IMG/VR virus record: IMGVR_UViG_3300010410_000011
Span: 1 to 20,110 of that record
Length of the DNA stretch: 20,110 nt
Source: a virus
Direction: 5' to 3' (one strand)
Below, in pieces: positions 3,583 through 7,321 of this stretch; within the stretch, counting starts at the first letter, position 1; every line of letters begins with the position of its first letter. The notes beneath the pieces were generated by a model. The model saw nothing but the letters and a program-made list of their open reading frames with translations, was not told the origin of the DNA and did not search any database. The translations under genes were made by a program, and so were the position numbers.

Positions 3583-3671
3583 TGAGTAGAAATAGCATAC
3601 TCTGCGAGAAAATATACGACTATGAAACATTTAGAAAAGCATATTTAAAAGCAAAAAAGAAGAGAAAGTGA
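3582..3671 (+). CDS. Putative small basic protein, 29 aa
   Basis: A short frame starts at the ATG at 3582, overlapping the previous stop by one base, with AGAAGG just upstream, and ends at a TGA at 3669-3671. The peptide begins MSRNSILCEKIYDYETF and ends in a Lys/Arg cluster (KAKKKRK). It fills what would otherwise be a 98-base gap in a tightly packed operon, and the coupling style matches its neighbours. There is no recognised homologue, and it could be a chance frame. Confidence 0.4.
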   Translation: MSRNSILCEKIYDYETFRKAYLKAKKKRK

Positions 3672-5856: not shown

Positions 5857-6660
5857 ATGGCTAGCAAAGAAAAAGATAAACTGAACATCAATTATTTAAC
5901 AGAAGCAAAACCGAGAGCCATGGCCGGCGACATTCCAGTGTTCTGTGCTTTCGACAAATTAGAACCAATAGCAAAGCTGGTACCAAACCCGGGGAACCCA
6001 AACAAACACCCGGAGAGCCAAATAGAACTATTATCGCAAATCATAAAAGCCCAAGGCTGGCGTGCTCCCATAACGGTGAGCACCCGCTCCGGATTTATAG
6101 TAAGAGGCCATGGTAGGCTACAAGCAGCACAAATACTAGGCGCAAAAGAAGTGCCGGTGGACTATCAGAACTACGCAAGCGAGGCCGAGGAATACGCGGA
6201 CCTTATAGCAGACAACAGAATAGCAGAGCTGGCCGAGATAGACAATAAAATGCTGGCAGACATGATAGGGCACATCGACACAGGAGAAATACCTCTGGAA
6301 TTAACCGGATACTTGGATAGCGAGTATGCCGAAATCATAGACGCACTAACCGACGGAATAGACGACCAGCTCAATGGACTAGACGCCGAGATAGAACCGC
6401 CTGAAGAACCGGTGACAAAACCGGGCGACCTTTGGATCCTCGGGGGGGGGGCAACACAGGGTATTATGTGGAGACAGCACGAACCCGGAAGATGTGGACA
6501 GGCTCATGGAAGGAGAAGAAGCAGACCTCATAGTCACAGACCCGCCATACAATGTGAACTACGAGGGAGGAACAGACAAGAAACTCACCATCAAGAACGA
6601 CCACATGAAGGACGCCGACTTTTACAACTTCCTATACGAGGCTTACATGCGAATGTATGA
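5857..6660 (+). CDS. ParB-domain part of a split ParB-methyltransferase (frame broken after residue 198)
   Basis: The ATG at 5857 follows AGGGGGTG. Residues 30-130 are a ParB/Spo0J N-terminal nuclease-like domain: NPGNPNKHPE (44-53), VRGHGRLQAAQILG (82-95) and ADNRIAELAEID (118-129). Residues 180-196 (PPEEPVTKPGDLWILGG) are the linker that normally leads into a DNA methyltransferase with LGxHRLLCGDST. Here ten Gs at 6442-6451 shift the frame. After G198 the reading becomes an Arg/His-rich out-of-frame tail of about 69 residues ending at 6660. With nine Gs the two halves join in frame as a protein of about 487 aa. In the given sequence the product is a lone ParB domain, so this is an off state, a mutation or a homopolymer sequencing error. 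Confidence 0.85.
   Translation: MASKEKDKLNINYLTEAKPRAMAGDIPVFCAFDKLEPIAKLVPNPGNPNKHPESQIELLSQIIKAQGWRAPITVSTRSGFIVRGHGRLQAAQILGAKEVPVDYQNYASEAEEYADLIADNRIAELAEIDNKMLADMIGHIDTGEIPLELTGYLDSEYAEIIDALTDGIDDQLNGLDAEIEPPEEPVTKPGDLWILGGGATQGIMWRQHEPGRCGQAHGRRRSRPHSHRPAIQCELRGRNRQETHHQERPHEGRRLLQLPIRGLHANV
6442..6451 (+). repeat. G10 homopolymer tract inside the ParB-methyltransferase gene
   Basis: Ten consecutive G residues follow the CTC codon at 6439-6441. The upstream frame reads GGG GGG GGG GCA, while the methyltransferase frame resumes at CAA 6452, so the tract length decides whether the two domains are fused. Nine (or twelve) Gs restore the fusion; ten do not. The usual family spacing LGxHR would need only three Gs, so the tract looks expanded within a tolerant glycine linker. 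It is the longest homopolymer I see in the window; other G runs, at ribosome binding sites, reach about seven. Confidence 0.9.
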
Positions 6661-7321
6661 GAACATAAAGCCGGGCGGGGCTTATTATATATTCCACGCA
6701 GACACAGAAGGTCTAAACTTCAGGAAGGGGCTAAGAGAGGCAGGATTTAAATTATCCTCATGCCTGATATGGGTAAAGAACGCACTGGTACTCGGAAGGC
6801 AAGACTACCACTGGAAACACGAACCGATACTATACGGCTGGAAGGAAGGCGCAGCTCACTACTTCATAGACGACAGAAGTCAATGCACAGTGATAGAGGA
6901 CAAGATAGACGTCGACAAGCTGAAGAAGGAAGAAATGAAAGAGCTGCTAGAGAAACTGCTGGACCAAGGCATAAGCACAGTCATATACGAGGACAAGCCT
7001 CTAAGGAACGCAGACCACCCAACCATGAAGCCGGTGGCCTTGGTAGGAAAGCTGATACACAACAGTAGCCGAAGAGGGGAGCTGGTACTGGATTTATTCG
7101 GAGGAAGCGGATCCACGCTCATAGCTGCAGACCAGCTGGGAAGAAGAGCAAATCTCATGGAACTAGATCCGAAATACTGCGACGTCATAGTAAAGAGGTA
7201 CGTCAGAGTAACAAAGAGATACTACGACCTAAAATGCATTAGAGACGGCAAAGAACTAAGCATAGAAGAAATGGGGGAAATATTCGAAACCCATGAAGCG
7301 GAAGGAGGCGGGGACTATTGA
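6494..7321 (+). CDS. DNA methyltransferase part (beta-class N6-adenine/N4-cytosine type) of the split gene
   Basis: This frame holds a complete catalytic core. Counted from the GTG at 6494, the motif IV DPPY lies at residues 16-19, HPTMKPVAL at about 175-183, and the AdoMet-binding motif I DLFGGSG at 200-206, followed by MELDPKYCDVIVKRY. DPPY before FGGSG is the beta-class order of amino-methyltransferases; the region between would choose the DNA target. The coding frame really begins upstream at 6452 with QHRVLCGDSTNPEDV, the conserved start of the domain, which has no start codon of its own. The GTG 6494 or ATG 6506 would lose that strand, and neither has a convincing ribosome binding site. 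Function therefore probably depends on in-frame fusion to the ParB domain. In phages such enzymes commonly protect DNA from host restriction. It ends in a TTGA overlap with the next gene. Confidence 0.85.
   Translation: MDRLMEGEEADLIVTDPPYNVNYEGGTDKKLTIKNDHMKDADFYNFLYEAYMRMYENIKPGGAYYIFHADTEGLNFRKGLREAGFKLSSCLIWVKNALVLGRQDYHWKHEPILYGWKEGAAHYFIDDRSQCTVIEDKIDVDKLKKEEMKELLEKLLDQGISTVIYEDKPLRNADHPTMKPVALVGKLIHNSSRRGELVLDLFGGSGSTLIAADQLGRRANLMELDPKYCDVIVKRYVRVTKRYYDLKCIRDGKELSIEEMGEIFETHEAEGGGDY

Follow-up and report, generated by a model that had tools for sequence, protein, structure and literature searches.

The locus which we describe lies in the IMG/VR virus record IMGVR_UViG_3300010410_000011; we call the window the whole stretch of 20,110 bases which was analysed. 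On its plus strand an open reading frame starts at 5857 with MASKEKDK and runs for 195 codons (5857–6441) as the ParB-like N-terminal half of a ParB-methyltransferase fusion, reading GDLWIL up to a tract of ten Gs at 6442–6451. The tract, a predicted slip site, starts at a codon boundary of this frame (6442). The other half, a beta-class methyltransferase of the N6-adenine type, is read in the +1 frame from 6443 to 7321, as GGGQHRVLCGDSTNPEDV...TDPPYNV...DLFGGSGS... Its domain begins with the HRVLCGDS motif (6455–6478), whose columns are mostly invariant or nearly invariant in the alignment. It is followed by the catalytic motif IV, DPPY (6539–6550), and by DLFGGSGS (7091–7114), the sequence motif I for AdoMet binding. 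Past the tract the ParB frame gives 72 wrong residues and a stop at 6658–6660; this out-of-frame tail (6452–6660) belongs to the present state of the gene, presumably OFF. In the methyltransferase frame there are 13 open codons upstream of HRVLCGDS, with no start codon among them. The first-pass annotation had placed the tract at the linker between two halves in different frames, which these coordinates fit exactly. It had also proposed that one G fewer would join them in about 487 amino acids, and the frames on either side of the tract confirm it: ten Gs are one in excess, and with nine the two halves are joined.

The neighbours are genes of a contractile-tailed phage. Upstream we find a Holliday junction resolvase and a pyrophosphohydrolase; downstream there are a phrog_36 regulator, Neck1, the small and large terminase, the portal and the head protease, and further on a decoration protein, the major head protein, the tail sheath and head closure. 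In blastn the structural genes match Roseburia phage Shimadzu best. Within these 20 kb no integrase was recognized.

Both halves match the same profile, PHROG 498 (phage DNA methyltransferase), the first one at profile positions 14–199 (E 1.3e-47) and the second one at 199–448 (E 4.1e-105). Judging from these adjoining matches, they are two parts of one protein. The match of Pfam ParB_N to the first half is weak and falls below the cut-off. The second half matches Pfam N6_N4_Mtase (E 2.6e-31), and the solved structures related to it include MboIIA, CcrM and DpnA. A PHROG 498 fusion is recognized by a ParB-like domain followed by an N6/N4 methyltransferase domain in one profile, with intact catalytic DPPY and AdoMet FGGSG motifs. 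The window has all of these features, the reading as one protein being possible only with one G fewer.

The G10 tract is the sole run of eight or more in the window. By itself it is only mildly improbable, since as many G8 matches were found in 3 of 100 dinucleotide-preserving shuffles of the window; its position is what counts. Relatives were sought in IMG/VR by a scan with the ParB half. The four closest contigs (L086, L088, L091 and L093), which have 86–87% amino acid identity in this half and were also recovered by the tract scan, form with the window a fully supported clade in the tree. All four have LGGGQHR in frame, coded by G8CC in three of them and by G9 in the other one. LGGGQHR with a G8–G10 tract is found in 5 of the 5 clade members, and the next relatives (64% identity or less) have LGxHR without any tract. 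The annotation had taken LGxHR as the family spacing and the tract as an expansion of it. This agrees with the relatives and with the two additional glycines of the window clade; however, the number of Gs required is not fixed. Relatives with LGGHR in frame need seven of them if the last base of the preceding codon is a G, so that the in-frame length depends on the lineage. Within the clade synonymous sites are near saturation (dS against the window above 1.3) and the G-run is still present; GGG represents 6–19% of the other glycine codons in these genes. As the tract is found throughout the clade and in none of the next relatives, with synonymous sites nearly saturated and GGG rare, comparison of the sequences indicates that this clade probably gained it and has retained it since. 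Another feature of this group is that dS between L086 and L088 is 0.39 in the ParB half and 0.10 in the methyltransferase half; this difference of about fourfold suggests recombination near the junction.

The length of the tract at the junction was studied by scanning 2.9 million viral contigs for runs of six or more Gs before HRxxCGD; this gave 50 contigs, to which two genome contigs were added. Tracts with six Gs (13 of 13) and seven Gs (23 of 23) are all in frame, 36 contigs out of 36, whereas among those with eight or more, the window included, 5 of 17 are in frame and 12 are out. When near-copies are merged, the values become 29 of 29 against 4 of 14 (Fisher p 5e-7). The raw count contains a Binatota MAG (L133, G8) with a doubtful frame, on which we do not rely. 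Mapped on the tree, the junction tract requires a minimum of 8 changes, of which well-supported branches force 6, although gains cannot be told from losses.

Two pairs of contigs are identical except for the tract. L082 (G10) and L092 (G9) share 5,896 bp without mismatches, and L089 (G8) and L116 (G7) share 12,568 bp, also without mismatches; in each pair the only gap falls in the tract, and it toggles the frame. It has not been established that these contigs come from fully independent samples. Distinct strains also agree in out-of-frame lengths (L082 and L084 both have G10, L090 and L094 both have G8), which argues against random error. Otherwise identical contigs which differ by one G, and in-frame relatives with G8CC or G9, are the kind of support which the first-pass annotation had asked for when it proposed a phase-variable switch; raw reads and methylation are not covered. 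A contingency locus should have a long pure repeat which shifts the frame of an otherwise intact gene, as is the case in the window, with G10, one G away from joining and no decay. It should also differ in length, ON and OFF, between otherwise identical genomes; this is fulfilled in two other, independent lineages, by the two pairs above, in the same family and at the same site. The window's own clade has only more diverged in-frame relatives and no near-identical pair, and an exact-flank scan of IMG/VR gave no match to its junction.

The junction tract was absent from the first relatives of the methyltransferase half which were found (47–61% identity); tract-specific scans later found tracts. 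The same gene with an out-of-frame G8 tract is present at 527–534 of a contig from a Spirochaetia MAG of yak omasum (L132, JAGCGL010000071.1), which is probably a prophage or phage contig. A class-wide search around this MAG, in 395 genomes, gave one more tract. Prophages of S. pyogenes have a split annotation, "DNA modification methylase (x2)"; its match has the same length as in the unsplit Javan486, so that there is no indel and it is not a case of a G-tract.

Among relatives picked irrespective of tracts, runs of G9–G10 are also found elsewhere in the gene. A second site lies directly before motif IV (LMxG..ADLxxTDPPY), which in the window is the stretch directly 5' of DPPY. At least 120 contigs (L134–L253) have eight or more Gs before ADLxxTDPPY, in tracts of G8–G12. 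Among the matches listed, 92 have the upstream methyltransferase motif; 57 of these are in frame and 35 are out (about 40%), 27 with one G too many and 8 with one too few. Near-identical pairs differ at this site (10/9, 10/8 and 10/11), and on the tree its tract needs no fewer than 31 changes, 12 of which are imposed by branches with good support, again with gains and losses not separable. A third site is found in the ParB domain (VLID-GGG-IIAGHGR): in contig L075 a G10 tract at 3654–3663, before IIAGHGR, splits the frame. In a structural model of the in-frame relative L093 (mean pLDDT 78, with about 95 near the junction) each of the three sites is placed in a turn that links two strands or a helix and a strand, and the junction tract falls in a predicted beta-hairpin turn (LWIL-GGG-QHRVLC). 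It may be inferred from the turns in this model that extra glycines should be tolerated at the three sites.

Other G/C tracts also vary in these phages. The near-identical contigs L173 and L225 differ not only in the motif IV tract (10/9), but also in another G/C tract (9/8). L137 (IMGVR_UViG_3300029305_011225, 143,788 bp) has nine G/C tracts of 8–9 bases in about 11 kb, some of them in or beside open reading frames; two of the nine differ by one base in L252, which is otherwise identical. L137 is possibly a phage with many switchable genes.

It is unlikely, yet not to be dismissed, that the tenth G is an error of sequencing, PCR or assembly in a gene which is intact and constitutive. Ten Gs are a hard homopolymer, none of the four closest relatives is out of frame and there is no independent second assembly of the window here; runs of G8–G10 can be altered both by metagenome assembly and by library PCR. 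We have used as a control the terminase P-loop, whose protein sequence permits G7–G8, in the same collection; it replaced a count of other coding tracts of G8 or more, which were too few and ambiguous for this use. All 33 evaluable terminase tracts are in frame, four of them G8 and none longer; one tract flagged by the script is in frame and has a short upstream open reading frame. In near-identical pairs G/C runs of eight or more differ in 9 of 32 cases, A/T runs of seven or more in none of 72. Since the terminase control has few G8 tracts, library or assembly slippage could still be behind part of the length variation. Nevertheless, an error does not agree with the invariance of A/T runs and of the frame in terminase tracts, with the out-of-frame lengths shared by independent strains and the many G9 pairs which agree, nor with the fact that about 40% of the tracts of eight or more in these methyltransferases, among the matches listed, are out of frame in many lineages. 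It would also leave unexplained the recurrence of pure long G runs at these sites.

A programmed slippage of the ribosome or of transcription at a fixed G-run, which would produce the ParB part alone and the fusion from one genome, appears to us very improbable. G-runs can be slippery, and phage Mu is a described case of -2 frameshifting at a G-run. Most out-of-frame tracts are shifted in the same direction, and a +1 or -2 event would correct them: without duplicates, and among the matches listed, 34 have one G too many and 9 have one too few. Plain symmetric slippage would not be expected to give this bias, and the length threshold of the scan explains only part of it. A programmed frameshift needs a fixed slippery site and a downstream stimulatory structure, and neither is found: tract length is variable and not conserved, in-frame copies exist in otherwise identical phages and among the relatives of the window, and the RNA 3' of the tract has a weaker fold than its shuffled versions (z +1.98). 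A restart codon upstream of HRVLCGDS is also lacking in the window, although residual leakiness is not excluded. The idea of a decaying pseudogene, in which the frameshift is the first step in the loss of the methyltransferase, can invoke the fact that the fusion cannot be read in the window contig; we give it hardly any credit. The gene has no other stop or frameshift and all its catalytic motifs are intact, and values of dN/dS against the relatives are 0.03–0.07 for the ParB half, where one comparison is saturated, and 0.036–0.069 for the methyltransferase half, close to the low values among in-frame members. By these ratios both halves are under strong purifying selection and the methyltransferase half is not decaying. 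A decaying downstream frame would have refuted the first-pass annotation, whose statement that both halves are intact is upheld. Furthermore, out-of-frame tracts are found in many lineages in genes otherwise intact.

Our favoured explanation of the G10 tract, held with good confidence, is a contingency locus of the slipped-strand type within a ParB-methyltransferase gene carried by the phage. Direct observations are the tract and its frame break, the conservation of both halves, the length variants in otherwise identical contigs of other lineages and the recurrence; slippage, reversibility, enzyme activity and benefit are inferred, without raw reads or methylation data. Slipped-strand mispairing during replication would add or remove Gs and toggle the frame. 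Nine Gs, or another in-frame length, would give the fusion of about 487 residues, with its ParB-like N-terminal domain and its beta-class adenine methyltransferase, and ten Gs would give only the ParB part with the wrong residues. The phage population may then be a mix of methylating and non-methylating genomes, a possible hedge between hosts whose restriction spares methylated DNA and hosts which attack it or where methylation has a cost. It also seems to us rather probable, with less assurance, that many phage lineages have such epigenetic contingency loci. Within one methyltransferase family poly-G would have arisen time and again, at three glycine loops (in the ParB domain, at the junction with the methyltransferase and before motif IV). 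Populations would be standing mixtures of methylating and non-methylating phages, a counterpart on the phage side of bacterial phasevarions in the face of variable host restriction.

Bacteria are known to phase-vary both restriction and methylation systems. If such tracts serve to vary the methyltransferases of phages as well, across many lineages and at several positions in the enzyme, phage methylation would be a bet-hedged and not a fixed trait; such genes are possibly annotated as broken or as two genes. Poly-G phase variation is already known for phage receptor-binding proteins and for bacterial methyltransferases, in species such as H. pylori (PMC12003011). In the open-licence literature, to which our search was limited and which included a paper on gut-phage methyltransferases (PMC10477858), we found no report of it in the methyltransferases of phages, and none of a recurrence at several sites.

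Members of PHROG 498, among them Roseburia phage Shimadzu (orf58) and Faecalibacterium phage FP_Lagaffe, have the same domain order and belong to the same family as the window gene, and the gene order of Shimadzu (methyltransferase, sigma factor, neck, terminase) is related to that of the window. However, the profile crosses the junction unbroken and the window gene is split there; no G-tract split was found in the examined records of named GenBank phage relatives. In Campylobacter Fletchervirus, hypermutable poly-G tracts make the expression of receptor-binding protein genes variable (Sorensen et al. 2021, Cell Rep 35:109214, as cited in PMC11959909, PMC10877375 and PMC11868660). The likeness lies in phage gene expression varied by poly-G tracts, and the difference in the product, a receptor-binding protein, and in a host genus which itself has much poly-G; in our case the product is a DNA methyltransferase, and the phages are many and unrelated. 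The phase-variable methyltransferases of bacterial phasevarions, such as the type III Mod genes M.Hpy300X and HpyAXVII of H. pylori (PMC12003011) and Moraxella ModM (PMC6902483), also have a repeat tract within the methyltransferase gene, in which a change of one unit joins or splits the frame. They are host genes, mostly type III mod with a restriction partner, whereas the window has a solitary beta-class methyltransferase, fused to ParB and carried by a phage.
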